Shown piece after piece: positions 8,377 through 52,340 of a stretch of 64,000 nucleotides of DNA. The stretch covers positions 620,001 through 684,000 of the forward strand of contig NZ_CP007440.1 in the NCBI RefSeq assembly GCF_001579845.1, written 5' to 3'. The DNA comes from Rhodoplanes sp. Z2-YC6860. GTDB lineage: Bacteria; Pseudomonadota; Alphaproteobacteria; Rhizobiales; Xanthobacteraceae. The first letter of the stretch is position 1. Every line of letters starts with the position of its first letter. The notes under the pieces are model-generated. The model was not told the origin of the DNA. It saw only the letters and a list, made by a program, of their open reading frames with translations, and made no database searches. The position numbers and the translations under genes were made by a program.

Positions 8377-8401
8377 AAATCAAAAGCAGCGGAGGACAGC
8401 G

Positions 8402-10381: not shown

Positions 10382-10450
10382 CGGGCCCGGCGTTGAACTG
10401 AAACGGACATTGGCGCGCACGCGTCAACGGAATTTCGACCGGAGTATAGA

Positions 10451-16969: not shown

Positions 16970-17002
16970 CTCAGCTGCCCCCGAAGGCTGTCTCGCGAGC
17001 AA

Positions 17003-17466
17003 AATGCTGCAGATGTCCTGGCGATGCCCCCGTGGATGCCATCGGACAAATGGAATTTTGGGGCATTTGCTGCCATGCCCTCAAGCGCTTAGTAGCCCGT
17101 CGGCGCAGGATTTTGTATCGGAAAGATTGATTCTTTCCTTCTGTATCGCGCGCAACACGCGCCGCGTACTTACTCGCAAGCCCTCGCTCCATCGTGTTGT
17201 GCAAATACCCGAGTGCCAAGCCTGCGTTCGGCAACCGTCTGTCAACTGGGACAATACCGAATGGCTTGGGACCCAGTTCCGCACGCGCGTGCGATTCATG
17301 CGAGCCAGCGTGCGTCGCAGTTCGGAAATAGCGGTGCGCAGGCTGGCCGTGGCCATCCACAGGGTCTCCCTTGGAGCTGGAATGTTCTATATTTGTTCTC
17401 TTTGAGTGAATGTCAATTGCTCTCCTCAAAACCCGAGAAATGCGGGCTTTTGGGAAGCGATGAGCC
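17003..17466. other. gap between the two methyltransferase genes
   Basis: About 460 bp. A 91-codon minus-strand frame (17356-17081, MATASLRTAISEL...) has a modest GGAGA upstream, but its product is not recognisable and its composition resembles neither neighbour. No gene is called. No convincing terminator or promoter was found. Confidence 0.4.
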
Positions 17467-20400
17467 CTAGGAGGCGAAGCGTCCGTCTGCTAGCCGCCGG
17501 GCTTGCCCAACCGCCGCGAGAGCGTTCAACACCGGTTCGATCGAAGTGGCGCGCTTGCCATCGAACAAGCGCGCGACTTCCCGGGCGGTAAGAGGCTTGG
17601 GAGAGCTCATGAGCACGCGGGAAATTGCCGTGACCTGCTCAGGCAGCGTTTTCGGCCAAGGCGCCGTAGCTCCGCTCGGCGGTTCAACAGCAATCTCTCC
17701 GAGATCAAATGTCTGCGAAACCGGAGCGACCTTAACCGGCGCCTGAATATCCGGGCGAAGCCACCGCACCGCGCCCCTTGCTTCCTCGGCAGCGCGGGCC
17801 TGATTGAGTTCCAGTAATCGGGCGAGCGCGTCCTCGTTCGTTATGGTCGCAGGCCAGCCATACGAGTTCGCGACAAGTTCATCGAGTTCGGATTGAAGGG
17901 AAGCAATCGAGCTTACGAGTCCGCGATCATGGATATCCCGTTCTTGCTTCGTGAGTGTTCGGCCCTCCTGCAGCGCCGCGATGACGTTGTAAACATCAGT
18001 AAGCGTCAAATCGGAATGGCGGGATATGGCATCTTTCCGTGCTCGATCGAGAGCAGTCATCACCGAGCGGATTTTTTCAACGAGCACGGCAGGCGGATCG
18101 CCGGGGAACGGGAATGGATCGAAACATTCGGTGTGATTGTATGTTGGATCGTTTCCGACGCCCAAGTGGGCGCCCGCCGCTTCAGAAAAATGAACATGGA
18201 AGCGACTATTAAGAACGCCCAAATGGAATGCGTCGTTGAGCGCAATGATAAGAACCTTGGTCTCGGGAATCGTCTCGTTGTCACAAAAAACGAAAAAGCG
18301 ATGCTTTGACGTGCGTGAGGTCGCGCAATAACGCGGAATGGACTGAAACGCCCTCCTGAATTTCGCGCGCGGCTCCGAATGCAGCCACCAGTTTTTGGCG
18401 TAGGCCGGTCTTGGATTTTGAGACCGCTCCGGGAACACGTGCGTAAGGAGATGTTGGTACGCGTCCGGGTACTGTGTTCGCAGCTCATCTTCCCCGAGCC
18501 CAAACGCGTCGATGACGAGCCTGCCTTTCGGCCGATTGTTGATTTCCCATCCGGTCAGGTATCGCTTCACAAGCTTCTGCCGCGTTTCGGCCGAAAACGC
18601 TTCCGCAATTCCGGGAGAGATGACGAACCCTTGACCTGAAAGCTGGACGCCGGGGCAGGCCAAGCCCCTGTTTGATTTGAGCGGAACGGCGGCGTGGATG
18701 TCCGGCCCCAGCCGCAAGCTCGACGTGAGGTGGCCGGTCGTGCGATGAAATGTAACAGCAACTTCGCCCGACCCGTCGGGAATTTCTGTCTCGCTCGTTA
18801 CGGTGTCGAGCATCGCTACGTCGGGGCTACGAGCGCCAACCGTCATAGCGATGCGGACTGCAGCGCCATCTTGACTGTCGATCCACGGATGGTCCGGGAT
18901 TGCGTAAACAATTCGCACAGGCGCAGATGCTTCGACGATTCCTCGGTTGAAAGCCTGCGTAATCGAATTGGTGGTGATGAAGCCGAAGCGGCGGACCAGC
19001 GCCTTGTCAGCCGTCATTGATGACGCGGCTTTCCACCACCAGTACATAACAAAATCTATCGTCTCGGGCAGTCCTTTGAATGCCGCCCGTACAGCTTCAG
19101 TGTAACCATCGCCCAGCCTCTCTCGCATCCGCTTGTTACCAATGAACGGCGGATTGCCAATGATAAAATCTGCCGTCGGCCATTTAGTGACCTTTGGCTT
19201 CACATAGCGCAGAACATTCACGCGCGCGGTCTCATCCGGCACGAAGTTGCCGGTCACCGGATGAAGCTTCGTCGTTTCTCCGTCCCAGCGCGTGACCGGA
19301 TTTCCGCCGGCGTCCACTTCTTGTTCAGTGCGCTCCCATTCAACCAGCGCATCTCGGATTTCGACCGTGCGAATGTCGCGAAGAATGGGTTCGGCCGGCA
19401 TCGTGTCCCGGCCAGCGACACGGAAGTGCCACTGCAAGTAACCGATCCAGAGAACCAGCTGTGCGATTGCAGCTGCTCGCGGATTGACTTCAATTCCCAA
19501 GAAATTCTCAGGTGTGATCGTATGGCCGCTAATCTCTGCCACGTATTGATAGTCGCCAAGATCACTCAGCAGATCGACGACCTCGGCTTCCAGCTCTTTC
19601 ATACGAGACATGGCCACGTACAAGAAGTTGCCTGTGCCGCACGCAGGATCGAGAACCTTGATTTGGGCAAGCTTTGCGTGAAATGCCTCGACTTCGGCCC
19701 GCGCCTTATCGCGGTCGCCCATCTCAAGCAGCTTCACGGCTGCCGCTCGGACACCGAGCCAATCGGCTCGCAATGGCTCGATGATGGTTGGCATCACCAG
19801 CCGTTCTACATAGGCTCGCGGAGTGTAATGCGCTCCGAGCTTCGCCCGCTCCTTAGGATGTAATGCGCGCTCAAGTAGCGTGCCGAAGATCGCGGGCTCC
19901 ACAAGCGTCCAGTCGGCCTTTGCCGCCTTTATCAGAACCTCGAGCTCTTCCTCATCGATGGGGATGGCGTGCTGGTCCTTGAAGAGGTAGCCATTGAACC
20001 GCCGCATCATCGTTCCGAGGGCAGGGGAAAAAGTGCCTTTATCCATCGCCTCCCAGAGAGCCGATAGTTGGTGATGAAGGGTTTCCGGGTGCCCGCGTTG
20101 CGACACGAGCAGTCCCGAGAAACTTCCTTTCGGTATCAGCGACGTGTCCTCAGCGAAAATCGTAAAAAGCAGCCTCATTAAAAACCCGGACACATTTTCC
20201 GGCGAATGATCACGTGCTTCCAAACGTCTTGCCACGGTTGCAAGGAGCGTAGCGATCTCCCGGGTGGCCCGTGCAGATTGGGTCGATGGGTCGAGCTGCT
20301 TCGGGTTTTCCCAGATCGCTCGAAGCCGTTCCTGAATCGGACCAAGCCGGATGTCCTCCAGCATAATGCGGAAGCTGGCGCGGTCTGGAAACTGTGCGTA

Positions 20401-20925
20401 CGCCTTCCCCGTCCCGGTGAAGTCGGCATACACCTCGATGCAGTAGCCGACATCTACGACAAGGAGGAATGGCGGCCAGCCGTGGTCGACCGGAAGAGCC
20501 TTTGCGTATCTTTCGGCTTGTCCCTTTGCTTGCAGCATCGCCTTCGTCCAACCTGGCGTGCCGCGCCGGGCGGTGCCACGCTTCACCCGCTGGCTGGCCG
20601 TTTGGCCGAATAGATCGAGATCTGCTTCATTTTTTTCGGCAGCAATGCGGTCGGAATCGCTGCCTTGCTTAGCTTCGAGAACGAAGTGTCCTCTCTTGTA
20701 ACAGTCGATCCGGCCAAAACTTTCCGTACCGTCACCGTTATCCTGAAACACGCGGCGTTCGAACACGTAGTCGTTGAGGGTGTCGTCGCTGCGCGAACCG
20801 GCGGGAGCAGCCACCCCTAACAGGGCAGTCAGGCCGTTAATAAAACTTTGCGTGTTGGCAAGTTCAGATCCCCCCGTGTCACGCCAGGTCTTTATGAAAG
20901 AATTGACGGGATCCAAGTCGGTCAT
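17467..20925 (-). CDS. MmeI-like single-chain restriction-modification enzyme (type IIG/IIL)
   Basis: 1152 aa. Near the N-terminus GRIDCYKRGHFVLEAKQG gives D74-X9-E84-x-K86, the same spacing as the PD-(D/E)XK site of MmeI-type enzymes. A helical linker follows, then motif I VLDPACGTGNFLY (~424-430) and motif IV FIIGNPPFIG (~589-592). The C-terminal ~500 residues hold the target-recognition part (WWLHSEPRAKFRR, FDPFPFPGD) and a winged-helix-like tail with LTAREVARLFDGK. One polypeptide would both methylate adenine and cut unmodified sites. It looks intact and stands alone, as these enzymes do. Confidence 0.87.
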   Translation of the reverse strand: MTDLDPVNSFIKTWRDTGGSELANTQSFINGLTALLGVAAPAGSRSDDTLNDYVFERRVFQDNGDGTESFGRIDCYKRGHFVLEAKQGSDSDRIAAEKNEADLDLFGQTASQRVKRGTARRGTPGWTKAMLQAKGQAERYAKALPVDHGWPPFLLVVDVGYCIEVYADFTGTGKAYAQFPDRASFRIMLEDIRLGPIQERLRAIWENPKQLDPSTQSARATREIATLLATVARRLEARDHSPENVSGFLMRLLFTIFAEDTSLIPKGSFSGLLVSQRGHPETLHHQLSALWEAMDKGTFSPALGTMMRRFNGYLFKDQHAIPIDEEELEVLIKAAKADWTLVEPAIFGTLLERALHPKERAKLGAHYTPRAYVERLVMPTIIEPLRADWLGVRAAAVKLLEMGDRDKARAEVEAFHAKLAQIKVLDPACGTGNFLYVAMSRMKELEAEVVDLLSDLGDYQYVAEISGHTITPENFLGIEVNPRAAAIAQLVLWIGYLQWHFRVAGRDTMPAEPILRDIRTVEIRDALVEWERTEQEVDAGGNPVTRWDGETTKLHPVTGNFVPDETARVNVLRYVKPKVTKWPTADFIIGNPPFIGNKRMRERLGDGYTEAVRAAFKGLPETIDFVMYWWWKAASSMTADKALVRRFGFITTNSITQAFNRGIVEASAPVRIVYAIPDHPWIDSQDGAAVRIAMTVGARSPDVAMLDTVTSETEIPDGSGEVAVTFHRTTGHLTSSLRLGPDIHAAVPLKSNRGLACPGVQLSGQGFVISPGIAEAFSAETRQKLVKRYLTGWEINNRPKGRLVIDAFGLGEDELRTQYPDAYQHLLTHVFPERSQNPRPAYAKNWWLHSEPRAKFRRAFQSIPRYCATSRTSKHRFFVFCDNETIPETKVLIIALNDAFHLGVLNSRFHVHFSEAAGAHLGVGNDPTYNHTECFDPFPFPGDPPAVLVEKIRSVMTALDRARKDAISRHSDLTLTDVYNVIAALQEGRTLTKQERDIHDRGLVSSIASLQSELDELVANSYGWPATITNEDALARLLELNQARAAEEARGAVRWLRPDIQAPVKVAPVSQTFDLGEIAVEPPSGATAPWPKTLPEQVTAISRVLMSSPKPLTAREVARLFDGKRATSIEPVLNALAAVGQARRLADGRFAS

Positions 20926-21401: not shown

Positions 21402-21815
21402 TCACCCCTGAAGGGGAGATTGAGCATCGATGACCCAGCGCAGTCGTTGTTCAATCCAACTTGACGGAAATGGCTGCATAAGATCAACCAACGTGAGATT
21501 TAGCCCCCGCTGATCCAAGATCATCGCGACGATATCTGGCGCCAAGTTGGTCAGGCGCAATATTCGGCAGGCGTAGGATTGATTGACTCCTTCAGCCTTC
21601 GCCAATTCGGTAATAGATGAGTACTCGCCATATTCAATCAACGACCTCCATCGATAAGCGCGCGCGATGGCTTTAGTGATCGAGTCGTCGAACCGGGTGC
21701 GAGTTGCCGGCTTCCTGAAATCTCCAATAATCGTTTTCCGGCCACCACGAACGGCAAGTTTCAGAGGCACTCGAACAGTGACGGTCGCCGATGTCTTGGT
21801 CTTTGTAATTGTCAT
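21402..21815 (-). CDS. KorB/ParB-like helix-turn-helix protein of the recombinase cassette
   Basis: 137 aa. An N-terminal basic strand region (VPLKLAVRGGRKTIIGD) is followed by a helix-turn-helix, SSITELAKAEGVNQSYACRILRLTNLAPDIV, resembling the HTH of ParB/KorB proteins. Its start overlaps the recombinase stop by 4 nt (ATGA), so the two are translationally coupled. A paralogue lies at 56347-56736 in the same position of a decayed cassette copy. Conserved linkage suggests it helps or regulates the recombinase; the mechanism is unknown. Confidence 0.75.
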   Translation of the reverse strand: MTITKTKTSATVTVRVPLKLAVRGGRKTIIGDFRKPATRTRFDDSITKAIARAYRWRSLIEYGEYSSITELAKAEGVNQSYACRILRLTNLAPDIVAMILDQRGLNLTLVDLMQPFPSSWIEQRLRWVIDAQSPLQG

Positions 21816-23140
21816 GCGGCTTGGTCCGTGGGAGCTGATGGCGGACCGATGTCCCGCACCAAACTTGCCAAGCCCTCCGTTCGCAGCGTGATATCGGCGC
21901 CGGTCGTAGAGACCTCCACGCGGTCTACCAGTAGCTGGACGATGCGGGCTTGTTCGATCGGAAAAAGCTCATTCCAGACCTCGAGAAAGCGGTTTAGGTG
22001 ATCGCGTACCTGCCGCTCCGTCAGACCGTCGGCTTGTTTTCTAACCGCGCGCCATGTGGCGGCGATGATTTCAGGGGAGCGAACCATCAGCTTGATTTGC
22101 TCGACCACAGCATTTTCGATGTCGATGGCGGGAATGCGCCGTACTGGATTGTTGTCGGCGATGCCGGATCGCAACGCGCTGGTTGCAATGTAGTATCGAT
22201 AAAGGCGTCCGCGCTTTCGGGTGTGTGTCGGCGTCATTGGCGCGCCGTTGGAGCCAAAAATCAGTCCCTTCAATAGAGCAGGCGATTGAATTCTCGTGGC
22301 CGAAGCGCGTTTACGTGGGCTTTCCTTCAGGACGCTATGGACTTTATCCCACAGGGCGCGATCGATGATCGGTTGATGCTCGCCGGGGTACGCTGTGCCT
22401 TTGTGTACGGCTTCGCCGACGTAGGTCCGATTATTGAGTAATTTATACAGCGCACCCTTGTCGATAAGCTTGCCGTAGCGATTGCGGGCGTTCTCAAGGG
22501 CCAACGCTCTCACCAGCTTGGTGCCAGATCCCATCTTGGCGAAGCGTTCGAAGATCGACAGCACCAGAGCGGCTTCAGGCTTATTTATGACGAGCTTCCG
22601 ATCCTTCACGGTGTAGCCCATCGGAACGTACCCGCCCATCCACATGCCCTTCTTACGAGAGGCGGCAAACTTGTCGCGGATGCGCTCGCCAATCACTTCA
22701 CGCTCGAACTGAGCAAACGACAGTAGGATGTTGAGCGTCAGCCGCCCCATGCTGGTGGTCGTGTTGAAAGCCTGCGTAACGCTGACGAAGGTGACGCTGT
22801 TCCCGTCGAACACCTCAACCAGTTTGGCGAAGTCCATCAGCGAGCGGCTGAGGCGATCGATTTTGTAAACCACAACGATGTCGACGCGGCGTGCCTCGAT
22901 GTCGGCAATGAGCCGCTTGAGCGCAGGCCGCTCCAAGGTGCCGCCAGAAAATCCACCGTCGTCATAATGGTCGTCCAGGAGCAGCCAGCCGTCGGCGCGT
23001 TGGCTGGCGACATACGCCTCGCAGGACTCGCGCTGAGCATGCAGGCTGTTGAATTCCTGGTCCAAACCCTCTTCGGAAGATTTGCGAGTGTAGACCGCGC
23101 ACCGGAGTTTCCGTTTGATCGCCAGCGTGTCCTTCGCCAT
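21812..23140 (-). CDS. large serine recombinase
   Basis: 442 aa from the ATG at 23140, which overlaps the DUF2924 stop (TAATG). The catalytic resolvase domain shows AVYTRKSSEEG (nucleophile S21), VYKIDRLSRSLMDF and SFAQFEREVIGERIRDKF. A recombinase domain (KGALYKLLNNRTYVGEAVHKG) and a C-terminal zinc-ribbon/coiled-coil region with RIVQLLVDRVEV follow. Such enzymes cut and join att sites through 5'-phosphoserine intermediates to integrate or excise elements. Fragments of close relatives occur at 47888-48020 and 56733-56952, so this family has moved repeatedly within the region. Confidence 0.92.
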   Translation of the reverse strand: MAKDTLAIKRKLRCAVYTRKSSEEGLDQEFNSLHAQRESCEAYVASQRADGWLLLDDHYDDGGFSGGTLERPALKRLIADIEARRVDIVVVYKIDRLSRSLMDFAKLVEVFDGNSVTFVSVTQAFNTTTSMGRLTLNILLSFAQFEREVIGERIRDKFAASRKKGMWMGGYVPMGYTVKDRKLVINKPEAALVLSIFERFAKMGSGTKLVRALALENARNRYGKLIDKGALYKLLNNRTYVGEAVHKGTAYPGEHQPIIDRALWDKVHSVLKESPRKRASATRIQSPALLKGLIFGSNGAPMTPTHTRKRGRLYRYYIATSALRSGIADNNPVRRIPAIDIENAVVEQIKLMVRSPEIIAATWRAVRKQADGLTERQVRDHLNRFLEVWNELFPIEQARIVQLLVDRVEVSTTGADITLRTEGLASLVRDIGPPSAPTDQAA

Positions 23141-23577
23141 TAGGTACTCCGCTGATTTTTCAGGCCGAAAAATACCAAGCCGTTCCAACGCGTGCCGGTG
23201 ATGGCGCGGGCAATCGCCGACAGAGACCGATACGGACGGCCCTGATATTCGAAGTCGTCGTCTCGCACCGTGACGCAGTGCTCGACACCCTTCCATTCGC
23301 GGATCAGGCGGGTGCCCGCGATAGGCCGTTCGGATACCTGCCGTCCGCGAACCGCTTTGCCGTCGAATTCGGCGGCTAGCGCTTCCAGCCGTTCAACGGT
23401 CTCCGCTGAAAGCCCGCCATAGGCCAGCTCCTGGATGCGGTAGGCCAGCCGATTTTCCAGAAACCGCCTGTTATAAGGTGGGGCTTCCCGACCGAAGAGG
23501 TCGCGCCACTTTTGCTTCAGGGCGCCGATTGGGGCGGATTTTATTGCCGCCAACTGGGCCAAAACGCCTTCAGCCAT
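23140..23577 (-). CDS. DUF2924 family protein
   Basis: 145 aa from the ATG at 23577 (MAEGVLAQLAAIKSAPIG). Typical DUF2924 segments are LKQKWRDLFGREAPPYNRR, RLAYRIQELAYGGL and GTRLIREWKGVEHCV. Genes of this family sit directly before large serine recombinases in many Rhizobiales and related genomes, and here the stop overlaps the recombinase start. A role as recombinase accessory or DNA-binding factor is likely but, to my knowledge, not established. Confidence 0.88.
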   Translation of the reverse strand: MAEGVLAQLAAIKSAPIGALKQKWRDLFGREAPPYNRRFLENRLAYRIQELAYGGLSAETVERLEALAAEFDGKAVRGRQVSERPIAGTRLIREWKGVEHCVTVRDDDFEYQGRPYRSLSAIARAITGTRWNGLVFFGLKNQRST

Positions 23578-23839
23578 CAATTGTTCTCCGATCCACAGGG
23601 GTCGGATGTCCGCTCTGTTGTTCGAAACTGTCGAGCGGAAATTCTCCGGTCCGGAGTGATTTTTCTCTGGACTGCCGGGCCAACATGCGGCTCAGGCCGA
23701 CGGCCAAGAGCTCCGCAGTTTCAGCGATCCAAAGAGATGACACGTCGCGCGGGTTCATGGCCGGAACATCGGCTAAAACAACGGAAAATCCAGCCCTATC
23801 AGGCGCATATAGAAATACGGAGTAGAGCCGCGAAGACAA
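23570..23839 (-). CDS. small conserved protein of the recombinase cassette
   Basis: 89 aa, overlapping the start of the DUF2924 gene. Not recognised by family. Comparison with the decayed cassette at 57305-57520 shows shared blocks: LAVGLSRMLARQSREKS against FAVGLQRALARKSSEVS, and QSGHPTPVDRRTIDG against QSVHPTPMDRRTSNG. Protein-level conservation between the two copies supports a real gene. The start codon is uncertain. Confidence 0.6.
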   Translation of the reverse strand: MSSRLYSVFLYAPDRAGFSVVLADVPAMNPRDVSSLWIAETAELLAVGLSRMLARQSREKSLRTGEFPLDSFEQQSGHPTPVDRRTIDG

Positions 23840-23953
23840 AGGAAACAGGCAGTATCGTTGACTGTGGGTATGTTGAGGTTGGCGAGGTATCCAGGATGGG
23901 CCTCTGCAACTACTGACGATGCAAGTGTTGCTGATTCGCGGTCGGATTCGGAG

Positions 23954-24721
23954 ATGCCTCGGAAGTCGGCTTCACTCCCCGGTTGGACATTGCGCCGTGC
24001 AGCGCGGGAAACCGCACGGTCGGAGTGGGATTCTTGGATCGCGGCGCAGCACGCGATTCAAAAGGCAGGCGGGGGTAACAAGCGAGCGACCGTTTATTCA
24101 GGCATTTCGCTCGAAGACGCGTTTGATGCTCGAGCTGCTAGCCCAAAACGAAAGCTAATTGAAGCGGAACGGACTGCCTTTCGAAACCTGAAACGTGCTC
24201 TGGCTCAAAAGCTTTCAGGCGGTGAGCTAGTCGCCGTCGGGCGGTCAGGCAGTATACTCGCCCAACTAAAAATGATTCCGGCGCCTGCTTGGCGTGAACT
24301 TGTGTTCCATCGGCTCGCAGAATCGGTAATCAAGGAAGCGCGCTCAGAGAACTTCGTTCACGACGTGCGAGTATTTCGGCGGAACGAAATCCCTGGCGAT
24401 CTCGAAACTATCACCCATCGCTTGCCTATCGACGTTGAACCGGACGCCTTCGACGATCAGGCGAACTCCGAGATAGGGCAGGACGTTAGCGATCCACTTC
24501 CCGGTAAAGCGTGCGAGCGCTGGCTGTGTGCCGCCATGAGAGCTTCGCCTACGGACAGATCCAAACCTAAAAACCAATGGTTTTTCGAAGCGAAACAGAA
24601 ATGGCCGTCTCTCGCGAGACGGGCGTTCGATGACGCCTGGAGCAGGGCTTTGGACGCCACGGGGGCCTTTTGGGGAAAGTCGGGGCGGCCTCGAGGTCGT
24701 GGTCGTAAATCACCGCAGTGA
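23954..24721 (+). CDS. hypothetical protein of the mobile region
   Basis: 255 aa from the ATG at 23954 (MPRKSASLPGW), preceded by TTCGGAG; the frame stays open back to 23858. No known domain was recognised. The C-terminal third is basic and Trp-rich (NQWFFEAKQKWPSLARRAFDDAWSRA) and ends GRPRGRGRKSPQ, suggesting nucleic-acid binding. It starts the plus-strand series leading to the AlpA-like and winged-helix genes and the repeat modules, so it may belong to the replication or mobility part of an integrated element. Confidence 0.55.
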   Translation: MPRKSASLPGWTLRRAARETARSEWDSWIAAQHAIQKAGGGNKRATVYSGISLEDAFDARAASPKRKLIEAERTAFRNLKRALAQKLSGGELVAVGRSGSILAQLKMIPAPAWRELVFHRLAESVIKEARSENFVHDVRVFRRNEIPGDLETITHRLPIDVEPDAFDDQANSEIGQDVSDPLPGKACERWLCAAMRASPTDRSKPKNQWFFEAKQKWPSLARRAFDDAWSRALDATGAFWGKSGRPRGRGRKSPQ

Positions 24722-24813: not shown

Positions 24814-25053
24814 ATGAAGTTTGTGGCTGATAGAAACGAAGCGTGTGAGCTTCTGAATGAAGTCAGAGCTGCCGCAATCCTAGGTCTGTCGATTCGAACG
24901 CTGCAGGCGTGGCGCGCGCACCGCACAGGGCCACGTTTTGTGCGCGCCGGGCGCGCCATTCGCTACCGACGCAGCGACCTCAGCTCCTGGATCGATTCCA
25001 ACACCATTGGATCAGTTCCGCCTAAGCCAGAGAGATCGCCTTCACAAACGTGA
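24814..25053 (+). CDS. AlpA/excisionase-like helix-turn-helix protein
   Basis: 79 aa. The segment LNEVRAAAILGLSIRTLQAW, then GPRFVRAGRAIRYRRSDL and SWID, is the winged HTH of AlpA/excisionase (MerR-like HTH_17) proteins, which bend att DNA or activate element genes. The position just before an orphan primase-type domain and the repeat modules fits control of excision or replication of a satellite-like element. The domain call is reliable; the role is inferred. Confidence 0.75.
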   Translation: MKFVADRNEACELLNEVRAAAILGLSIRTLQAWRAHRTGPRFVRAGRAIRYRRSDLSSWIDSNTIGSVPPKPERSPSQT

Positions 25054-25237: not shown

Positions 25238-25573
25238 ATGCCAAACAACCAACTTGCGGATCTGATGGAGTCCATCGGAACGACGCTCATGAAACTCGCC
25301 GCCGAGCAGCGGAGAACGCCCGTTCCAAAGTCTGTCATGTTTGACGAACAATTCGGGTGCGTGCTTGACCAGTTTATAGACGAAAAGCTGGAAAGGGGTC
25401 CGTACACCTCCGGAATCGGAGCGCGTGCAATGTACGGTGCTTATGCGGATTGGGCTCGAAGCAAGGGACTTGAAGTCAGAACTCAAACGAAGTTCGGACG
25501 CGAGATGCCCTCGAGAATTCCAAGAGACGATACCGGGTCCACCCGTGTCTATCAGTTGGTAAGATTTAAATAG
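25238..25573 (+). CDS. orphan winged-helix domain resembling the D5/P4-type primase-helicase C-terminus
   Basis: 111 aa from the ATG at 25238, preceded by GAAGGACAACCA; an upstream in-frame extension is discounted. The second half, VLDQFIDEKLERGPYTSGIG, RAMYGAYADWARSKGL and TKFGREM, follows the pattern of the C-terminal wHTH of D5-like phage/plasmid helicases (F..F..E, LY..Y..WC...G, F...L). No primase or helicase domain precedes it. It is either a stand-alone DNA-binding protein or the surviving end of a replication gene. The repeat modules begin 190 bp downstream. Confidence 0.55.
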   Translation: MPNNQLADLMESIGTTLMKLAAEQRRTPVPKSVMFDEQFGCVLDQFIDEKLERGPYTSGIGARAMYGAYADWARSKGLEVRTQTKFGREMPSRIPRDDTGSTRVYQLVRFK

Positions 25574-25760: not shown

Positions 25761-26038
25761 GCGATAGTTTGCGATGGTTTGCGATAGTTCATAATCAACT
25801 ATCGCAAGGTATTTATCGTTCATGATCATAGTGTTACGTGGACCATGCGAGGGTTGCGATAGTTTTTCCCTATACACGTGTGAACTTGTTCAGCCCATCT
25901 GCGCCAGTAAAACTAATGCCTATAGGGAGGAAAAACTATCGCAACTATCGCAGGTCGCGAACAAGCCCTTGTTCGGGCAAATGATTTTCGTGCGCGAGGG
26001 TTTGAAGCGACTATCGCAAACTATCGCAAACTATCGCT
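25761..26038. repeat. iteron module 1 (unit GCGATAGTTT)
   Basis: Three direct 10-bp units GCGATAGTTT (second with one change) at 25761-25790 run into loop CATAATC and the inverted unit AACTATCGC, forming a 9-bp hairpin. A longer inverted pair follows: GCGATAGTTTTTCCCTATA at 25856-25874 against TATAGGGAGGAAAAACTATC at 25921-25940. Two inverted units sit at 25935-25952, then three direct CTATCGCAAA units at 26009-26038. Orientation thus flips across the module. This resembles replication iterons or a multi-operator; no open frame uses it. Confidence 0.8.
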
Positions 26039-26133
26039 GATTTTCCGCAGACGCCGATCGGTTGAGTTTTTCCGATGTCATGGCTGCAGCACGCGATCGG
26101 ATCGTTGTTTAGCATTTACGTTTGTCTGCACCA

Positions 26134-26418
26134 AGAGAGGATTGAGAGGATCGATTGAGGATTCATAATCAATCCTCGAAGAACAATATCGACTGAGCAT
26201 CAACTACTTAGAGATCTTCTGCGAGGATAGAGACGATTTTCGGCGGTGTATACATGAGAGAAAATTTCAGAAGGAGCGAAAAAAATTCTCTATATGTGAC
26301 GCGTGGAAAATCCTCGCAATCCTCGCACGCCAGATTCAACCCACTGAGGTTGCACAAAAATATCAGATCGAGGATTGATCGTGAATGCTCGCTAGATCCC
26401 CGCAATCCTCGCTCAATC
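26134..26418. repeat. iteron module 2 (unit GAGGATTGA)
   Basis: It has the same layout as module 1 with a different unit. Units GAGGATTGA, GAGGATCGA and TTGAGGATT occur at 26136-26163, then the identical loop CATAATC and inverted AATCCTC. A flanking pair follows, with GCGAGGATAG near 26221 and an AT-rich inverted segment around TATACATGAGAG and TCTCTATATGTG. The tandem inverted units AATCCTCGCAATCCTCGC lie at 26309-26326, and a final CGCAATCCTCGC lies at 26401-26412. Only the hairpin loop and architecture are shared with module 1. Confidence 0.78.
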
Positions 26419-26514: not shown

Positions 26515-26550
26515 ACTTAACCGATTTAACCGGTTTAACCGATTTAACCT
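26515..26550. repeat. short repeat array 3 (unit TTTAACCGA)
   Basis: Four consecutive 9-bp units, TTAACCGAT, TTAACCGGT, TTAACCGAT and TTAACC, end in TTAAAAAA. It lacks the upstream half seen in modules 1 and 2. It is followed 15 bp later by the 36-bp element at 26565. It looks like the right end of a third module of which only the terminal array survives. Confidence 0.75.
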
Positions 26551-26564
26551 TAAAAAATCTGCGC

Positions 26565-26600
26565 CTAACTAGCGCGAGCTCGGGGTCCGAATTACCCGCG
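26565..26600. repeat. 36-bp element, copy A
   Basis: It begins CTAACTAGC and ends CGAATTACCCGCG. It matches copy B at 28505-28540 at 30 of 36 positions. The differing bases cluster in the centre, where each copy has its own self-complementary core (GCGAGCTCG here). It lies just right of array 3. Read on the minus strand, both copies could encode GNS(D/N)P(E/K)LxLVR, so a coding origin remains possible. Confidence 0.65.
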
Positions 26601-26838
26601 TGGGAACGAACGCCAGAAGGACCCAAGCCGGGGCACCGTGAGTCCGTAGCAGCGTCATTAGGCGATATCGCGTTTCGCTTTGGCAATGTCCGACCTACAC
26701 CTCAAAGCTGACATGCAGCGGAGCGGCGAAGAGGTCCGCTTCGCACCACCAATGGACATCAGCCTACACGCTTGGTCTTGGCAATGACATTGCAGCGGGC
26801 GCACACGGAAGCCCTTGATATGCAGAACCGCAGGCACG

Positions 26839-28666: not shown

Positions 28667-31600
28667 TCATCGAGGTCTGAGGTCAATATTTCGCCCCGAT
28701 GGGTCAGGGTCGCCAGCGTCCTTCGGGGAGTGTCGTTTCAGAAATTCCAACAGTTCTTCTTGGCGCGGTTGCCCGAAGGTCATCCGATACAGCGCCAAGG
28801 ACTGCTTGAGGTCATCTATGCGAGTGGTCTCGCGGGACAACGGTAACATTGGTAATCGCCGCTCGATTTTAGATGGACCATCGAATATCCAGAATGGAAC
28901 CATATCGTTTTGAGCATCCGGACGCCGGTCCAAAGCCGTACGAAAGATCGATGCCCAGGGATCGCGGCTGCCCTTCGTACCTTCAATGCCGTAGGCTCGC
29001 GCCAGATTCTTGCGGATGAAATGCCCCTTGAAGCGGTGGATCCGCCCCTCGCGCTGCTCCAGATCGACGGGATTGGTCGGCAAATTCCAATGCACAAGGG
29101 CATGGCAATAAGGATGGAAATCGAGTCCCTCTTGCCCGATCGATGTCGAAGCAAGAATGAAAGGACGGAACGGAGAATTGAAGGCGTCGCGAAGCGCGCC
29201 CTCGCGCGTCTTTTCGGAGCCGTCTTCCGAATCGGAGTCGCCGAAGCGCTGCGCAAATCGGCAGCGGACGCGTTGCGACTTAACTGAGACCCCTCCGTCG
29301 GACGCTGGCCGGTAGTGGTCATAGGCAAGCGAGGTTGTATGCAAGCTCACGGCGTTGCCGATAGCCTTGCCGAGGTTGTGCAAGCCCTCGCCAGTGCCGT
29401 GCTTAACGCTCAGAAGATCGATGAGAATGTGAACATATTCGTCAATGACCGCCTGAAGATTGCCGTCGCAGCAGTAGCTCAGCACTTGGTCCCAGTAAGG
29501 TAGTTTGCGGCCGAAGAGTCCTCGAAGGAGCAGCATGCTCTCGGGCACATTAAATAATGTGCGGAATCCTAGAGCCGCTGACGCGGCGGACTGCCAGGCG
29601 GCACGCTCCTCTGCGGAATCAGCATGTCGCAACAGGGCGCGCAAAATGACGGTCCCCGGAGCCCCGATGGCGATTTTGGCAAGTACGTTCGCGAGATCTT
29701 CAGGTGGCCGACCAAGCCGGTTGGGCCTGGCTACGAGCTCGGAAGCCTCGGCTATGTGCTTCTGAAACAGACTTTGCTCTTCATCGTCGGGCGATGCCCA
29801 TGACCATTCGTCGCTTTCCTCCAGCATCCATTCGCGAACCGATGGGGCGTGTTGCTTGTCGAGCAGAAGCGGCGCCGCCCAGTACCAGCGCTGGTCTGGC
29901 CGCGCGCTTTTGTCCTCATAGCCGCCAACAAGCGGTGAAAGCAGGTCCGACACTTCCTTGGCGACGCGTTGGTCCAGCTCGGTCCTTGTCAGCCGCATGC
30001 TTTGCGCCTGCGCATGCACGAGCGGGTCGATGCGCCTGGCTAGCGTCATGCAGGGATAAAACAGCGCATGCAGCGGCATTCCGCCAAGGCGCCCGTCCTC
30101 TTCTGACCATCGCAGCAGTGGCCCATGCTTTTCCCGCAGTTCGCTATAGCTGGGCTCCGCATCGCCTTCGATCACCATGAGACGCTCCATCGCGTAGCTC
30201 ACAAGCATCGCGATGGATCTCGGCACGACCTTCCATGACGAGAAGATCAATTGTTTAGTATGCGGATGATCGTCCGTGCCTGCGAAAACGCCCTGCGCTT
30301 CGTAGTAGGGCAAATCGGCCGGGAGCCACAGCAGCTTCCAAAGCTGGCTCTGCGCGAGGTCCTCGATCAGGGTTCGAAGCCGCGGGTTTTTAGGATCGAT
30401 GGGCTGATACGCCTCCATGACCTTGGCGGGTAGCTGCCATGGCAGTAGGTCGCGCAGCGCGGTCAAGATCGGCTGCTCTTGGCTCTCGATCGCGTCGTGC
30501 AGCAAGCTCTTGAGCCGGTAGCTTTCCTCCATGATGTTGATGAGGTAAGGGCTCGACTTCCACAACTCGATCGGATCGTCGGCTCTCACCTGACTGGCGA
30601 GTTTCGATAGCAGACGGTATTCGAGAAAATCCCCCGACACCATCGGAACGAGCGCGGCCCGGACTTCCTTGAGCATGCCGTTGCGATCGGCCGTGGCGGC
30701 TAGGCGCTCAGTCCGGCACATGACATTGCGCAGGCACCGCTCAATGGCGTTCAAGGCGTCTTGCTCCGGGATGCCGATATCCTGGCCGCAGAGTGCCTTT
30801 CGGTAGGTGACAAGATTCTTTTCGAGCTGGTCCACGTCCTCCGGTTTTTTCGCCAGAAGGAAGCGCGACGTTTCCAGAAAATCGCGACAATGGTCGTCAC
30901 CATCCGTCTCGCCGGTGACCGTGTACATCTTGTAAGGCGTGGCGGACAGAAGAAGTATCTTTGAGCCCGCGGAGGCAAAAAGCTGTTGGGCAAGCTGCGC
31001 CGCCTCATCCCTCGTGTCTCCGGTCTGGAGCAGATTACGGAAGCGCTGGAACTCGTCGAGTATGATGAGGTCGGGTTCGAACACTGCCAGGCAACTGCGC
31101 GCCAGCGCGCGCCTCAAGCGTGCAATCAGCTGATTACGCGCATGCCGCTGCTCGTAAGGGACAAGACGCTTGCGAGCACGCCCAAACAGTTGGGATTGCT
31201 CCTCGAAATCGGAGGCAAGCGAGGGGTCGGCAATCAGCGCTTCATTGAAGCGCTGGACGACCGCCGGTTCAAAACCACCCTGCTCGACGATTTCAGACTT
31301 CACCTCATCGAGCAGCCTTCGCCAGCTCTCAATGCCGGCGTTGGCTTGCAGCAGATTCATAGCGGCGGTGCCACGCAGGCCCCAGATGTCGTCAAGGAGC
31401 CAGTAGAGCACGGCCCGTTCGCGTCGCGCGCCGCTGCTCGTGCCAAAATCCAATGACGTACCCGGCGTGAAGGAGATGAAGTTGACCTTGCGCTCGTTGA
31501 GGTCGCGCAAATGGAGAGGCAGAAGTGTGAGGCGCGACGCGAAGGCTTGATCCTTCGAATCTCCGAGGTTCAGCCGGTTGACATTTTGGCGAGCGATCTC

Positions 31601-31846
31601 AGCGTTGGAACAGATATAGAGTACGTCGATACGTTTTTTCTTGTCCCACAGATGCGTAACAGCCCGCGCGATGACGCCTTTCGCAACCCATGTCTTGCCG
31701 AGCCCCACCTCGTCGGCGACGAGGAAGCGATCGACGCGGTCGAGATCGAGATAAAGGCGGCGAAAGGCGTAGTCCACCGTCGCCCGCTGAAAATCGCGCA
31801 GCGACTGGCAGACCTCGTCCGCATCGGGCTTGGGCTGAGTGGTCAT
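28667..31846 (-). CDS. SNF2/DEAD-like helicase of a three-gene putative defence operon
   Basis: 1059 aa from the ATG at 31846, which overlaps the preceding stop (ATGA). An upstream in-frame start at 31885 is less likely. Motif I is VADEVGLGKTWVAKG, motif II ILDEFQRF and motif III LLLSATPYK. The C-terminal lobe has FILASTSIGQEGLDFHPYC and VDLEQREGRIHRFKG. The middle (~350-850) is a long family-specific insertion. This is the architecture of large superfamily-2 translocases found in defence islands. It follows a PLD-like and a DUF6361 gene with overlapping or near-touching ends, indicating one complex or pathway. The target is unknown. Confidence 0.85.
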   Translation of the reverse strand: MTTQPKPDADEVCQSLRDFQRATVDYAFRRLYLDLDRVDRFLVADEVGLGKTWVAKGVIARAVTHLWDKKKRIDVLYICSNAEIARQNVNRLNLGDSKDQAFASRLTLLPLHLRDLNERKVNFISFTPGTSLDFGTSSGARRERAVLYWLLDDIWGLRGTAAMNLLQANAGIESWRRLLDEVKSEIVEQGGFEPAVVQRFNEALIADPSLASDFEEQSQLFGRARKRLVPYEQRHARNQLIARLRRALARSCLAVFEPDLIILDEFQRFRNLLQTGDTRDEAAQLAQQLFASAGSKILLLSATPYKMYTVTGETDGDDHCRDFLETSRFLLAKKPEDVDQLEKNLVTYRKALCGQDIGIPEQDALNAIERCLRNVMCRTERLAATADRNGMLKEVRAALVPMVSGDFLEYRLLSKLASQVRADDPIELWKSSPYLINIMEESYRLKSLLHDAIESQEQPILTALRDLLPWQLPAKVMEAYQPIDPKNPRLRTLIEDLAQSQLWKLLWLPADLPYYEAQGVFAGTDDHPHTKQLIFSSWKVVPRSIAMLVSYAMERLMVIEGDAEPSYSELREKHGPLLRWSEEDGRLGGMPLHALFYPCMTLARRIDPLVHAQAQSMRLTRTELDQRVAKEVSDLLSPLVGGYEDKSARPDQRWYWAAPLLLDKQHAPSVREWMLEESDEWSWASPDDEEQSLFQKHIAEASELVARPNRLGRPPEDLANVLAKIAIGAPGTVILRALLRHADSAEERAAWQSAASAALGFRTLFNVPESMLLLRGLFGRKLPYWDQVLSYCCDGNLQAVIDEYVHILIDLLSVKHGTGEGLHNLGKAIGNAVSLHTTSLAYDHYRPASDGGVSVKSQRVRCRFAQRFGDSDSEDGSEKTREGALRDAFNSPFRPFILASTSIGQEGLDFHPYCHALVHWNLPTNPVDLEQREGRIHRFKGHFIRKNLARAYGIEGTKGSRDPWASIFRTALDRRPDAQNDMVPFWIFDGPSKIERRLPMLPLSRETTRIDDLKQSLALYRMTFGQPRQEELLEFLKRHSPKDAGDPDPSGRNIDLRPR

Positions 31847-33711
31847 CCTCGCAAGGCCTCTCGCGCGCTCCAGATCGGCGTCCACACCGAGTCAAAATTC
31901 GTTGGTAGAAGGGCCGCGCCTTCCTCCGTCTTGCGCAGATCGTCGACCAGCGATTTCACGCCGTCCAAGAGCTCCGGCTGCGTCGCGAGGGCGCGACTTA
32001 ATTCCTCAAAGAGAGGGATCGATCCGGTACCGTTGGCGCCCTGGCGTTTGGCCGGATCGTGGGCCGGCGTGAAGAGGTCCTTGATCCGACCGGAGTGCAG
32101 GCCGTCGTGATGAATGAGAAACAGGAGATAGCGCAGCACGTTGGCCGGATCGCTCAAGACATGATGAAGAAGATTTTCGAACCGGTCTTCGGGCATGCCC
32201 GAGAGCGGAAGCTTGAGGACGAAACGAAGCTCGATGCTGTTTTCGCCTCGTCCGGCCGTGACCGTGACGGCGAGGAAGGCTGTGAGAGCTTGGGAGGACA
32301 GATGCTCGAAGATAAGATCATGCCCTGAAAACAGCGGCGCCATAGATTGCGCTGCACTTGGCGCGAGCGTGATCGGCCAAGCGACCGCCGTGGCGTTGGT
32401 CTTTGCCGTGACGGGCGCGAGCGTTCGCAGGGTCAATCGATAGAGCTTCTCCTCGCGGGCGATCTGGAAACGCAAAGGAAGAGCGGCGATTAAGGTCCGC
32501 AGCTGTTCGGCGATTTTGCCATTTTCCTCAGCCACGTCATTCACGACAGGTGGGCTTTTCGGAATTTGATAAGGCAACAGGAATTGGGAGAATCCTTTTG
32601 AGCCCGAAACGCCATTTAGAAATGCATCGATCCCGACCTTGCTCTTTTTACCGGTGAGACGGGTTAGAAATTCGACATTGTTGTGAAAGCCGGCCGATGT
32701 GGCGTTGGTCGAGCCCGTCCACAAGTCGGAATCCCAACCGGCATCGGCGAGATAAAGCTTTGCGTGCAGGCCGTGCGCGGCGACCTGGGTCGCCGCATCC
32801 TCGGACGCGTTGAGAATCGGCGCGGGGGTATCTGCAGTTTCGGTTGCTTCGTCATCGCCGGACGCGGCGTCGTCAATGGCGAAAATTTCATCGAACTTCT
32901 TCAAGGTGGCGGCATCGATGGCGTCGAGACTCTCGGCCCTCGAAATCAGGACCGCTGGAACCTCCTCGGCGATACCCTTCAGAAAGGATGCGCTGAGGAA
33001 CGGCGACAATATCAGAAGCCGCCGGGTGCCTTCGGGAAGCTTGGGCGGAGGGAAGCCCGAAAGGCCCATCGGATAGAATTCGTAGTCGGTGAAGGGCTCC
33101 GGGAGCTCAAAGCGGACACGGCGTAGTTCGTCGGCGAGAAGGCTTACGGCCTCTCCATGCCGCGCATGAATTGGATCAGCCGCAAGGCCGGGAAGGGCAA
33201 GGAGAAAATCGGCCAGACGACGGTTCTTCGCGATGGCGCGTTGGCGTTCGACGACCTCGCCATCGAGAGCGAGCAGCGTATCCCACGACGGATCGCCTGT
33301 GATGTTCCGCGAAAGGCATAGAAAACGGTAGCGAACGGACTCGCCGGGAGAAGTGAACCGTAACGCCCAGATTTTCGGGTGAAAAGCCGCGCCTTGCTTG
33401 CGGACCGGGACGATAGCTTCTTCGAGATGAGCGTAGAGTGGATGCCGCCGAGCCGGCACTGCAATTCCATCCGCTTGGCAAAAGATCGTCAAGCGATTCG
33501 AATAGGCACGAAGCGCGTGAAGCAAGGCGACCGGATCGCGTACCAGCTTGCCCTCGTCGTTCGTCATGTCGAGCAAGGCAAAGCTGAGTGGAAGTGACAG
33601 CAGGGTTATGAGGTCGAGCGAATAGGTCGTGCCGATCGCACGGTCGAGCTGAAAACCCGGCGGGGGCCGGAGCGCGCTCAAGTAAAGCTCGCGTTGGTTG
33701 GGAGGCAGCAT
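31843..33711 (-). CDS. phospholipase D-like (HKD) protein
   Basis: 622 aa. Two half-sites of the PLD/HKD superfamily are visible. The first is FHPKIWALRF followed by FLCLSRNITGDPSWD. The second is LHAKLYLADAGWDSD followed by LWTGSTNATSAGFHNN, each a HxK...(G/S)SxNxT pattern. Bacterial relatives are usually nucleases (as in DISARM drmC or type IIS BfiI) rather than lipases. The C-terminal third has no recognised domain. It lies between DUF6361 and the helicase, overlapping the latter by 4 nt. A DNA-cleaving role is inferred. Confidence 0.8.
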   Translation of the reverse strand: MLPPNQRELYLSALRPPPGFQLDRAIGTTYSLDLITLLSLPLSFALLDMTNDEGKLVRDPVALLHALRAYSNRLTIFCQADGIAVPARRHPLYAHLEEAIVPVRKQGAAFHPKIWALRFTSPGESVRYRFLCLSRNITGDPSWDTLLALDGEVVERQRAIAKNRRLADFLLALPGLAADPIHARHGEAVSLLADELRRVRFELPEPFTDYEFYPMGLSGFPPPKLPEGTRRLLILSPFLSASFLKGIAEEVPAVLISRAESLDAIDAATLKKFDEIFAIDDAASGDDEATETADTPAPILNASEDAATQVAAHGLHAKLYLADAGWDSDLWTGSTNATSAGFHNNVEFLTRLTGKKSKVGIDAFLNGVSGSKGFSQFLLPYQIPKSPPVVNDVAEENGKIAEQLRTLIAALPLRFQIAREEKLYRLTLRTLAPVTAKTNATAVAWPITLAPSAAQSMAPLFSGHDLIFEHLSSQALTAFLAVTVTAGRGENSIELRFVLKLPLSGMPEDRFENLLHHVLSDPANVLRYLLFLIHHDGLHSGRIKDLFTPAHDPAKRQGANGTGSIPLFEELSRALATQPELLDGVKSLVDDLRKTEEGAALLPTNFDSVWTPIWSAREALRG

Positions 33712-33714
33712 GGC

Positions 33715-34899
33715 TCAGCCGAGCCCTTGGCGGATATCGTTGGCGATGGTCTTGACCCTAAACCATCGATAATCGATCTGCCCGGCGCCCGACGCTTCGT
33801 TCCAGCGTTCGAGCGCGCGGACGTTGCCGAGCCGCTTGCGTGTGCGCTTAACCTGGGCTTCCCGCGCCGTGATGATGGATTGCGCCGTCGGGTCGTCGGC
33901 GATATCGGCGAGCTTCGCGCTTCGAAGCGTATGATCGATCCAGCGGTCCACAAACTTGCGTGTCGGCGGCGATACGGCGTGCATCGATTCCGAGACGATC
34001 GCCCAGAACCGCTTACGGTCCCAGGACACGTAGCGTGCTCGGGCATCCTCGACCAGTTCCGCCCAGGTGCGGAGCTCGTCGCGGTATTCGTCCTGCAAGC
34101 GTTTTCGGTTCGCGTCGCAGGCTAGCATGAAATTGTAAAGTAACGCCGCGCCGTGCATCAGCTCGGAAAAATTTTGTGCATGCGCAATTTGGCTCTTGAG
34201 CGACGGTCCAAGCTTGGCGGCAAAGGTCGTTTCCCAGACGAAGTCGCTGTCGAACTCCGCATCGGAGCTGCTGAGAAGCTCGCCGTACACTGTCGGGCCG
34301 AATTCCCAAATCCGCTCGGCGAGGTATTTGGCTTCGCGCTTGTCGAGAGTGAAGGTCGTTCGTTCGAGAACGCCGGATGGGGACGGCGGCAGGCTCGAGC
34401 TCCATGAAGCACTTTCGGCAGACTGCTCGTCTTCGGCGACTAAACGGCGGCCTGACGCCGGATAAAAAGCGGTAAACTCGCGATGATATTGCTCCTGCGA
34501 TCCCGCAAACCGACGGACGCCGAGCCTCCCTAGACCGGCCCAGTAGATGCTGCTTGGCAACCGTGCCAACTTATCCTGGGCCAGCGTACCGATGATGCCG
34601 TCGGTCTCGCCGCCGTCTTCGAGCGCATGGATAAGGCGAATCTCGTCGCGCCGCGCAAGCCGTTCGATATCGGCGGGCAGCGTGCGGCGGCGTTCTAACT
34701 CCTGGTAAATCCATGGGATGAACAGAAAATAACGCGCCCGGGTCTGGATGGTGCTGGTCGACGGGAACAACAAGTCGGCAAAGGTGTCGCGAATGCCGCC
34801 AAGTCCCAACTCATCGCGGGTGTCCTTTTCGCTAAAGAGAGCGATGACATCGGACATTTTGCGGCGGTCGTCCTCCGCAAAATCCACCCAGGTGAACAT
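33715..34899 (-). CDS. DUF6361 family protein
   Basis: 394 aa from the ATG at 34899 (MFTWVDFAEDDRRKM); a TTG three codons upstream is possible. Characteristic segments are GIGGIRDTFADLLFP-like (GLGGIRDTFADLLFPSTST), IQTRARYFLFIPWIYQELE and RHAEF/EFTAFYPASG. I know the family as a partner of PLD-like and helicase genes; its biochemical function is not established. It is the first gene of the operon and is divergent from the TM0106-type gene at 35020, so a two-way promoter should lie in 34900-35019. Confidence 0.8.
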   Translation of the reverse strand: MFTWVDFAEDDRRKMSDVIALFSEKDTRDELGLGGIRDTFADLLFPSTSTIQTRARYFLFIPWIYQELERRRTLPADIERLARRDEIRLIHALEDGGETDGIIGTLAQDKLARLPSSIYWAGLGRLGVRRFAGSQEQYHREFTAFYPASGRRLVAEDEQSAESASWSSSLPPSPSGVLERTTFTLDKREAKYLAERIWEFGPTVYGELLSSSDAEFDSDFVWETTFAAKLGPSLKSQIAHAQNFSELMHGAALLYNFMLACDANRKRLQDEYRDELRTWAELVEDARARYVSWDRKRFWAIVSESMHAVSPPTRKFVDRWIDHTLRSAKLADIADDPTAQSIITAREAQVKRTRKRLGNVRALERWNEASGAGQIDYRWFRVKTIANDIRQGLG

Positions 34900-35019
34900 T
34901 GACGACAAAGGCCGCCCCCGAATCGTACTAACGACAGCAGTTTAAAATGTCCGCTAAGATTTCTTAGCCCGCGACCAATGGTTGTGCAATCTCAGGTTTA
35001 GTCGTATGATACGTTTTCC

Positions 35020-38000: not shown

Positions 38001-38418
38001 AATTCGCGAACTTGTCGAGGGATTGTTGAAGTCCGGAGCCAAATTCACTGATAAAGATGGCAAACAGAGTCCTATTGGACTGGACGATGTTCTTATCATC
38101 GCGCCCTACAACGCTCAGGTCTTCAAACTCCAGGACCGCATCCCGGGCGGGCGGATTGGCACAGTCGACAAATTCCAGGGCCAACAAGCCCCTATCGTCA
38201 TCTACTCTATGACGACTTCCACGCCGGCTGACGCGCCGCGCGGAATGGAGTTCCTCTACAGCCCGAACCGACTCAATGTGGCCACGTCACGTGCCAAAGC
38301 TCTGTGCATTCTGGTTGGCTCTCCGCTGCTGTTCGAAGCAGAATGTCGAACGCCGAGGCAGATGCAGTTGGCGAACGCCTTTTGCAGATATCTGGAGATG
38401 GCGACACCGCTCTCGTAA
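35020..38418 (+). CDS. TM0106-family RecB-like nuclease fused to a superfamily-1 helicase
   Basis: 1132 aa. The N-terminal nuclease has the RecB-type strand YEVVDTKLAK (~130) and a C-x2-C...C cluster (HCEICRWRTRC) that may hold an Fe-S centre. Next is an RNase H-like exonuclease region (DIFLDFEGDPF, ~330; YNRDDCLSAWKL). The C-terminal Dna2-like helicase has LQGPPGSGKTYTG (~760), VLFIDEAAQMSLAS, LGDPRQLEQP and GTVDKFQGQQAPIV. Such proteins can unwind and digest DNA ends. It stands alone on the plus strand, divergent from the DUF6361 operon. Intact. Confidence 0.88.
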   Translation: MQSVGGTIHLFASDLVGHLNCRHLTELDLAVAHGELAKPSVWDPVLELLTERGSQHEQNYVDHLRTNGMTLAAVDGVGVDAASVGKTLHEMRAGTAIIVQGALQAGRWGGRADVLRRVEIPSALGGWSYEVVDTKLAKETKGNTVLQLCLYSDLLALSQGRIPESSFVVAPGTGFEPQEFRIADFSAYYRRVRASLERAVDQGPQSVYPEPKPHCEICRWRTRCDAKRREDDHLSLVANISKIQIGELERQTVGTTAALAKLSLPLPWKPDRGSAQSYTRIREQARIQVEGREQGKVIYEPLKPEHSFGLALLPEPSPGDIFLDFEGDPFVDGGGLEFLFGYAFRDDAGTVRYRADWALSRISEKEAFECFVDFVIERLDIHPGLHIYHFAPYEPAALKRLMGRYATREDELDRLLRSIKFVDLYAVVRHGIRASVESYSIKKLEPLYQFKRQLPLSDAGKTLAKVQACLELGDFDAITEQDQQTVEGYNRDDCLSAWKLRDWLEGVRTAVIQSGAAIDRPAPEPGEASEELTEWQEKVAALVSRLTHGVPIDPTERTAEQQARWLLANVIDFHRREAKSAWWEHFRLAALSAEDLLEERAALSELVFVEAAGGTTKAPIHRYQFPPQDTDIRGDEDLRMLGGEPFGSVQAISLEERTVDVKKRQDTASVHPVAVYAHKVISSQVLADSLFRIGGHVAENGISGNGPYQAARDLLLMSAPRTGGEPLRIGSETPLAAAVRVARALDGGTLPLQGPPGSGKTYTGAHMICALARSGQRMGITANSHKVIRNLLDETIKIGEELGVSIECVQLIRDHEEKSVPHLQFAKNNAKLLAALGTSCQVGGGTAWLWAHPNASEAVDVLFIDEAAQMSLASVLAASQAARTLVLLGDPRQLEQPLQGTHPEGTDVSALDHMLGDHATIPAERGLFLEETWRLHPNICAYTSELFYEGRLRSRAGLEHQRIDSAGDLDGSGLRYLPVLHEGNQNSSPEEADKIRELVEGLLKSGAKFTDKDGKQSPIGLDDVLIIAPYNAQVFKLQDRIPGGRIGTVDKFQGQQAPIVIYSMTTSTPADAPRGMEFLYSPNRLNVATSRAKALCILVGSPLLFEAECRTPRQMQLANAFCRYLEMATPLS

Positions 38419-52339: not shown

Positions 52340-52340
52340 G

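Follow-up and report, generated by a model that had tools for sequence, protein, structure and literature searches.

At positions 25761-26418 of the window, the 64,000-nucleotide stretch of the Rhodoplanes sp. Z2-YC6860 chromosome that was analysed, two blocks of short repeats follow a gene for a small winged-helix protein, which raises the question of what these repeats are, which protein reads them and whether they are still in use. A preliminary description had seen in them two tandem modules of identical architecture and completely changed unit sequence, possibly serving as replication iterons or operators for co-evolving DNA-binding proteins. Our analyses connect these repeats with a widespread family of phage origins, and we regard it as very probable that the modules, M1 and M2, represent a predicted origin of replication of phage or satellite type in two diverged copies. 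The computed support consists of a layout and units like those found next to D5 genes, the covariation between unit and winged helix, and the identity of the solitary domain. The assignment as an origin is made because of position, layout, covariation, the annotation of phage A2 and the published picture, as given in the accessible text of the sources, for PICI, SaPI, SCC and P4.

The modules and the element that carries them

Both modules are present, M1 at 25761-26037 and M2 at 26135-26412 (the repeat features carry no strand), and none of 300 dinucleotide shuffles came up to the repeat score of either. A scan finds 11 units in M1, where the unit is AACTATCGC with variants GCGATGGTT and GCGAGGGTT, and 8 in M2, where it is AATCCTCGC. 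The M1 units stand in the order <<< > << >> < >>>, a full dyad that is its own mirror image, and the same order recurs on phage contig L214 with one extra forward unit in front. The architecture formerly called identical holds as a common plan: in both modules the left units all point one way, and the CATAATC-loop hairpin, an inner pair, a second inner pair in inverted orientation with GGAAA ahead of it, and a terminal array complete the set; M2 is less regular, shows the dyad order only in part, and has some units that are recognised by eye only. In M1 the inner inverted pairs (25846-25869 and 25929-25952) are 92% complementary. The supposedly complete change of unit sequence proved to be a difference at 3 of 9 bases when AACTATCGC and AATCCTCGC are set in a common register. 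Aligned end to end, M1 and M2 score 33, against a mean of 9.7 (sd 3.3, maximum 22.5) in 200 plain shuffles, the alignment having been run with the units unmasked so that they supply part of the score; the spacer words TTCATAATCAA and TATACA are, by eye, common to both.

The hairpin of M1, GCGATAGTT-CATAATC-AACTATCGC, lies at 25781-25805 and that of M2 at 26155-26179, and the hairpin sequence RTTCATAATCAAY is found at these two places only in the 8.19-Mb genome. Across 296 family genomes, 56 of which had a match, the other CATAATC-hairpin matches listed lack, by eye, a long inverted flank, and the hairpins of other modules have different loops. The shared loop is thus real in M1 and M2 and local to them, and as a mark of the family it was ruled out. 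In the AT-richness of its best 35 bases M1 surpasses only 12% of 65 phage modules and M2 26%, a low richness that would be compatible with decay. No match to the modules was found by blastn in 72,556 plasmid records, and M1 as DNA was found in its own genome only among 61 related genomes. Two further candidates were rejected: an RNA element, the sole Rfam match over the region (E 0.28) being under the gathering score, and a coding repeat, the two open reading frames across the modules having no PHROG match.

M1 starts 187 bases past the stop codon of the gene at 25238-25573 (plus strand), whose product of 111 residues has a helix at 5-25 and a winged helix at about 37-110. The product matches phrog_1829 (DNA primase C-terminus) at E 4.7e-7, as well as phrog_1156, and covers only the C-terminal part of the primase families; the D5 ATPase and primase domains are absent from it, and Pfam gave no domain above cut-off. 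With an AF2 model of the protein (mean pLDDT 84.7, block means 91-97 from residue 41 on), Foldseek lists the RFX1 and RFX5 DNA-binding domains, followed by African swine fever virus PrimPol, the best match being 1dp7 (RFX1 DBD) at E 1.4e-3 and none standing at 0.001 or below; a sequence profile of the winged helix likewise places RFX first (E 0.03-0.05). The P4 alpha domain 1ka8 is a weak sequence match (E 0.45) and is not among the 50 Foldseek matches listed for the model. Searches with the winged helix in genome contigs and in viral contigs yielded one weak relative in each. The frame is open, with an AAGGA motif ahead of its ATG, and as judged from these matches the gene is the C-terminal, RFX-like winged helix of a D5 primase, alone, which we call an orphan.

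The orphan is the third of three genes on the plus side of the element. The first (23954-24721) encodes a hypothetical protein of about 255 residues that, scanned as 23948-24718, has no match in Pfam, PHROGs or NCBIfam, and no tblastn match among plasmids or phages. The second (24814-25053) encodes an AlpA-like helix-turn-helix protein of 79 residues (Pfam HTH_17 E 4.1e-9) that matches phrog_66, a family of excisionase and transcriptional regulator, at E 2.6e-7; its name is that of the preliminary description, no AlpA-specific model was matched, and the NCBIfam excisionase domain fell under cut-off. On the minus strand lie, in order, a small helix-turn-helix protein (21402-21815) that is weakly ParB-like (HTH_ParB E 0.017, under cut-off), a large serine recombinase (21812-23296; Pfam Resolvase E 1.7e-37, Recombinase E 8.2e-12), for which the nearest NCBIfam model is CcrB, far under its cut-off, and a DUF2924 protein (23140-23580; Pfam E 4e-53). 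The right end of the element, after M1 and M2, is formed by the repeat RX (26517-26630, or from 26523 in a narrower delimitation), which occurs five times in the genome, in full or in part, the partial copies lying at genome positions 1457566, 1462382, 7221228 (minus strand) and 648505. A third tandem array at 26517-26549, just downstream of M2, is part of RX and separate from both modules; by eye, RX has tandem TTTAACCG units, a tract of TTAAAAA and a stretch resembling a T-arm. RX may serve these elements as an attachment or terminal repeat, and no left partner for it as an attachment site was identified. The element is flanked by defence genes at 14126-20925 and 28667-38418, with type IIG restriction-modification, ZacA/ZacB/ZacC and MkoA-like matches.

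D5 loci and the covariation of unit and winged helix

When viral contigs were scanned with a pattern of two M1 units, five contigs with arrays of the M1 kind were recovered; the viral pattern GATTGCGAGGATTG is too short to be informative. On L021 the array is flanked by the end of a D5-type primase-helicase gene on one side and by a gene that matches phrog_9306 on the other, and at L011, L012 and L014, which are winged-helix matches from other genomes, arrays occupy the corresponding place, mostly with other units. D5 loci were collected by protein search (80 viral relatives, the best of 169, with a query alignment, itself labelled A2, of five primases, four of which were already known to have arrays), and an array was counted where at least six units, at least two on each strand, lay within 380 bases after the gene. 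Such arrays follow the D5 gene at 75 of the 95 loci scored, whereas dinucleotide shuffles and stretches inside the gene gave none in 95 each. The 95 leave out L007-L009, L015, L016, L143, L146, L265, L267 and L268, where the script did not find the motif, and L215, which has no downstream sequence; L143, the phage A2 locus, was scanned separately. Removal of L018, L019, L242 and L245, which had been found by unit pattern, left 91 loci, or 85 after dereplication, in which identical C-termini are dropped, and the layout recurs directly downstream of the gene at 65 of these 85, the other 20 being without an array. Among the 65 are L147, L151 and L197 (on the contigs of L021, L020 and L018), first found by unit and found again by the protein search.

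The units at D5 loci include AACTATCGC, AACTGTCGC, AACTGGTGC, AACTCGTCA, AACTGTCAG, AACCCTCGC, AACCCTCCA and AATGGTGCA. Single modules can also mix units: L012 combines AACTATCGC and AACCCTCGC in one, and L280 mixes three. The phage relative L147 fits the NCBIfam model 'phage/plasmid primase, P4 family'. In Lactobacillus phage A2 the rep_origin annotated by the depositors shares 28 bases with the 3' end of the primase gene and carries three forward and three reverse copies of ATCCTCCCG around an AT-rich centre. It resembles the window locus in these opposed iterons, its AT-rich centre and its place directly after the primase gene, and differs in its unit, its single module and its full primase; an experimental study of this origin reportedly exists. 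At L317, just past a full D5 gene with an array, a D5-type winged helix ends a longer protein (8010-8681), the first part of which may be GIY-YIG-like.

Over the 65 loci, unit distance is correlated more strongly with winged-helix distance (Mantel r 0.423) than with ATPase distance (0.276). Given the ATPase, the partial Mantel value for unit and winged helix is 0.407 (p 0.0005, 2000 permutations), against -0.247 for the reverse partial, this partial test, with labels shuffled without a tree, being the sole control for relatedness. The covariation foreseen in the preliminary description is therefore found, across the family rather than in the window pair, and together with the layout it argues for replication iterons with a co-evolving partner, predicted to be the D5-type winged helix. 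Close pairs drawn from 59 standard-register loci covary most at the wing residue that follows GR, which differs in 86% of changed-unit pairs (145) and 22% of same-unit pairs (55), a result reached by 0 of 300 label shuffles. A second column (column 21), outside the wing and before the second helix, was also reached by 0 of 300, so that the wing is not the sole candidate.

The wing residue also follows the core of the unit. With TC-core units it is I, V, L or M at 36 loci and small at 4, and with GT units it is small at 16 and never I, V, L or M (p 1.2e-10), in a test where classes were corrected by hand, no tree control was applied and 9 of the 65 rows were left out (gap, other residue or other unit). 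A looser pattern, with four AACTGTCAG loci placed in the GT class, gives 32 and 4 against 4 and 16 (p 3.7e-7). The winged helices of L172 (unit AACTATCGC) and L179 (unit AAGTGGTGC) differ at 8 domain positions. RFX1 reads DNA with its wing, and by analogy a covarying wing would fit such a mode of reading; wing residue against iteron core offers a readable and directly testable rule. In the window orphan the wing residue, read from the alignment, is T, which is commonest with AACTGGTGC units and occurs also at L209 with the unit AACCCTCGC.

Orphan winged helices and double modules in other elements

The Rhodoplanes genome holds two further elements of this kind. The only D5 gene found in it has an internal stop and sits in element C, whose left genes are by eye like those of the window element, including the small helix-turn-helix gene in matching order, and which has one module with the unit AACGCTCCC, a copy of RX and a recombinase in two pieces. 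Element B, at 7.219 Mb, has an orphan winged helix followed by a module with AACCTCCCA and a module with AAACCCTCG; its protein and that of the window share an N-terminal stretch (blastp E 1e-5 for the pair). This genome thus combines a single-origin D5 element with two reduced elements that have a pair of modules apiece.

When six orphans were made into a profile, 55 of 391 family genomes gave a match, most of the matches listed lying, as judged from frame length, in long, primase-sized frames. Arrays stand directly after 10 of 18 orphan-type genes hand-picked from the profile matches, a count that includes the window (scanned from 120 bases past the stop codon), element B and both genes of L277. 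L318 passes a looser scan only, and L318 and L314 barely exceed their own shuffles. At L278 a possible array lies 780 bases downstream (looser scan); this locus was left uncounted, as was L320, rejected as an array-bearing orphan since its high score is due solely to a palindromic word. Stand-alone D5-type winged helices with their own arrays thus occur in regions where no D5 gene is seen. The prophage-like L277 (7349-9220) has two tandem orphan genes, each with its own array, AACCCTCGC and ATCCTCCCG, and a small-terminase match downstream of these cassettes. At L279 a Phage_capsid gene (10112-11365) lies 2.5 kb downstream of the orphan cassette, and L279 may be a capsid-coding satellite. Capsid-like or tape-measure-like genes were seen, by eye only, at L314, L318, L315 and L319, and alternating purine-pyrimidine (CG/CA) tracts were seen by eye in mid-module at L252 (about 8798-8826), L277 (about 9059-9085) and L279 (about 7780).

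In a tree of 77 columns and 82 rows, eleven orphans group with GGGAG-type primases and the window orphan falls, on a long branch, among primases with AACCCTCGC units. Reduction of the primase to its winged helix probably happened at least twice, a reading that long branches and few columns make unsure. Double modules of different unit within 1.5 kb occur at 3 of 11 orphan loci, namely the window and element B, where the two are adjacent, and L277, where the second winged-helix gene lies between them. At D5 loci they number 0 of 93 in one scan and 2 of 93 in a looser one, the latter equal to the shuffle rate (2 of 93) and more than 400 bases apart, the 93 being without dereplication and including L242 and L245. 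In the literature covered, which was titles and abstracts with subscription papers largely outside, neither the origin family in Xanthobacteraceae-like genomes nor orphan D5 winged helices with arrays are described.

Mechanism, rival readings and known systems

The mechanism we propose is that in P4-family (D5) phages the C-terminal RFX-type winged helix would bind a 9-base iteron dyad just downstream of its own gene, and the ATPase ring would then be loaded on the melted DNA, by analogy with the origins of P4, SaPI and PICI. The window element, where the ATPase and primase parts are missing, would encode the winged helix alone (25238-25573), which would bind M2 and perhaps M1; modules elsewhere (L012, L280) mix units of both kinds, so that one winged helix may bind both. 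A D5 ring, if one acts at M1 and M2, would come from an infecting helper phage, because the genome's only D5 gene found has an internal stop. Present activity as a helper-dependent satellite origin is a reading that we hold tentatively, as a substantial possibility. That the element discarded the helicase, kept the DNA-reading domain and has two locks, its two iteron types letting the D5 proteins of two helper groups start replication, or be trapped, is unlikely, and slightly more so because the L277 modules are not adjacent. If double origins do serve different helpers, hedging between helpers would be seen directly in the origins that an element carries.

The modules could also be an inactive relic, an idea that is plausible if somewhat doubtful and almost as likely as the helper-dependent reading: a whole D5 gene with its origin or origins would once have been present, the ATPase part would have been deleted, and the remainder would be drifting. 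The uneven units of M2, the poverty of M1 in AT-rich sequence, and the stop-bearing D5 gene and divided recombinase of sister element C would all suit this history. It sits less easily with the orphan gene's own start and open frame, with the related protein and two modules of element B, and with similar orphans followed by arrays in other genomes, where L279 has its capsid gene and L277 its small-terminase match. Any present activity other than that of a helper-dependent origin, if the modules are not a relic, seems rather unlikely.

Lambda O recruits the host helicase, and the orphan might itself be an initiator of this sort, so that the element would replicate without D5. We consider this distinctly improbable. 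The arrays directly after 10 of 18 orphan-type genes speak for it, as does the result that the winged-helix profile finds no primase-length frame in stretches of 4-18 kb around L277, L279, L280, L314, L315, L318 and L319, and the modelled helix at residues 5-25 could serve as a partner surface. No helicase-loader motif was identified in the orphans, however, their N-terminal parts are poorly conserved, and in G667, the genome in which L314 lies, a complete D5 gene (L323) is present on a different contig.

An anti-phage decoy, in which the origin copies and the unattached DNA-binding domain would tie up or block the initiators that phages bring in, is very unlikely, since a single chromosomal copy would be expected to titrate weakly. 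The idea draws on the position of the locus, with type IIG restriction genes on one side and a set of ZacA/B/C-type genes on the other, on the two units, which would cover two phage groups, and on cloned lactococcal phage origins and replisome organisers, reported in the accessible text of PMC8965321 to give phage-encoded resistance. That M1 and M2 are instead regulatory sites for the winged-helix or AlpA-like protein is the least probable reading, for although two DNA-binding proteins are encoded just upstream, the next clear gene after M2 is SelO-like and lies beyond RX, and origins that are annotated or have been proposed share this layout.

Among known systems, PICI and SaPI have iterons immediately 3' of the initiator gene, the E. 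coli islands always have two iteron sets around an AT-rich region, AlpA occurs in Gram-negative islands, and the SaPI Rep reads the origin by its C-terminal domain (accessible text of PMC6092414 and PMC7581432). The window element is like them in its iterons 3' of the winged-helix gene and possibly in its AlpA-like gene, and differs in an initiator cut to the winged helix, in tandem modules and in a recombinase of the large serine type; a Pri-Rep gene, a PICI trait, is missing from the element, where the winged helix alone is present. In satellite phage P4 the alpha winged helix binds repeats at the origin, as stated in the part of PMC4234260 available. The window element would share the winged helix and the origin repeats, and differs in having no primase or helicase domain and in matching 1ka8 weakly. 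The Bartonella run-off replication origin, a phage-derived origin left in an alphaproteobacterial chromosome (PMC6899734, accessible text), may be likened to M1 and M2 by kind and setting rather than by sequence. The Vibrio satellite PLE, according to the accessible text of PMC7145576, has its own initiator RepA with iterons and a large serine recombinase, its replication being confined to infection by the helper. It provides a precedent for helper dependence, as a satellite with its own initiator that can need a helper for replication, but RepA has the RepA_N fold of an unrelated family, and the dependence that is experimental in PLE is inferred for the window element. Elsewhere in the window, at 51440-54802 on the minus strand, a second serine recombinase and two ParB-like genes were seen by eye.
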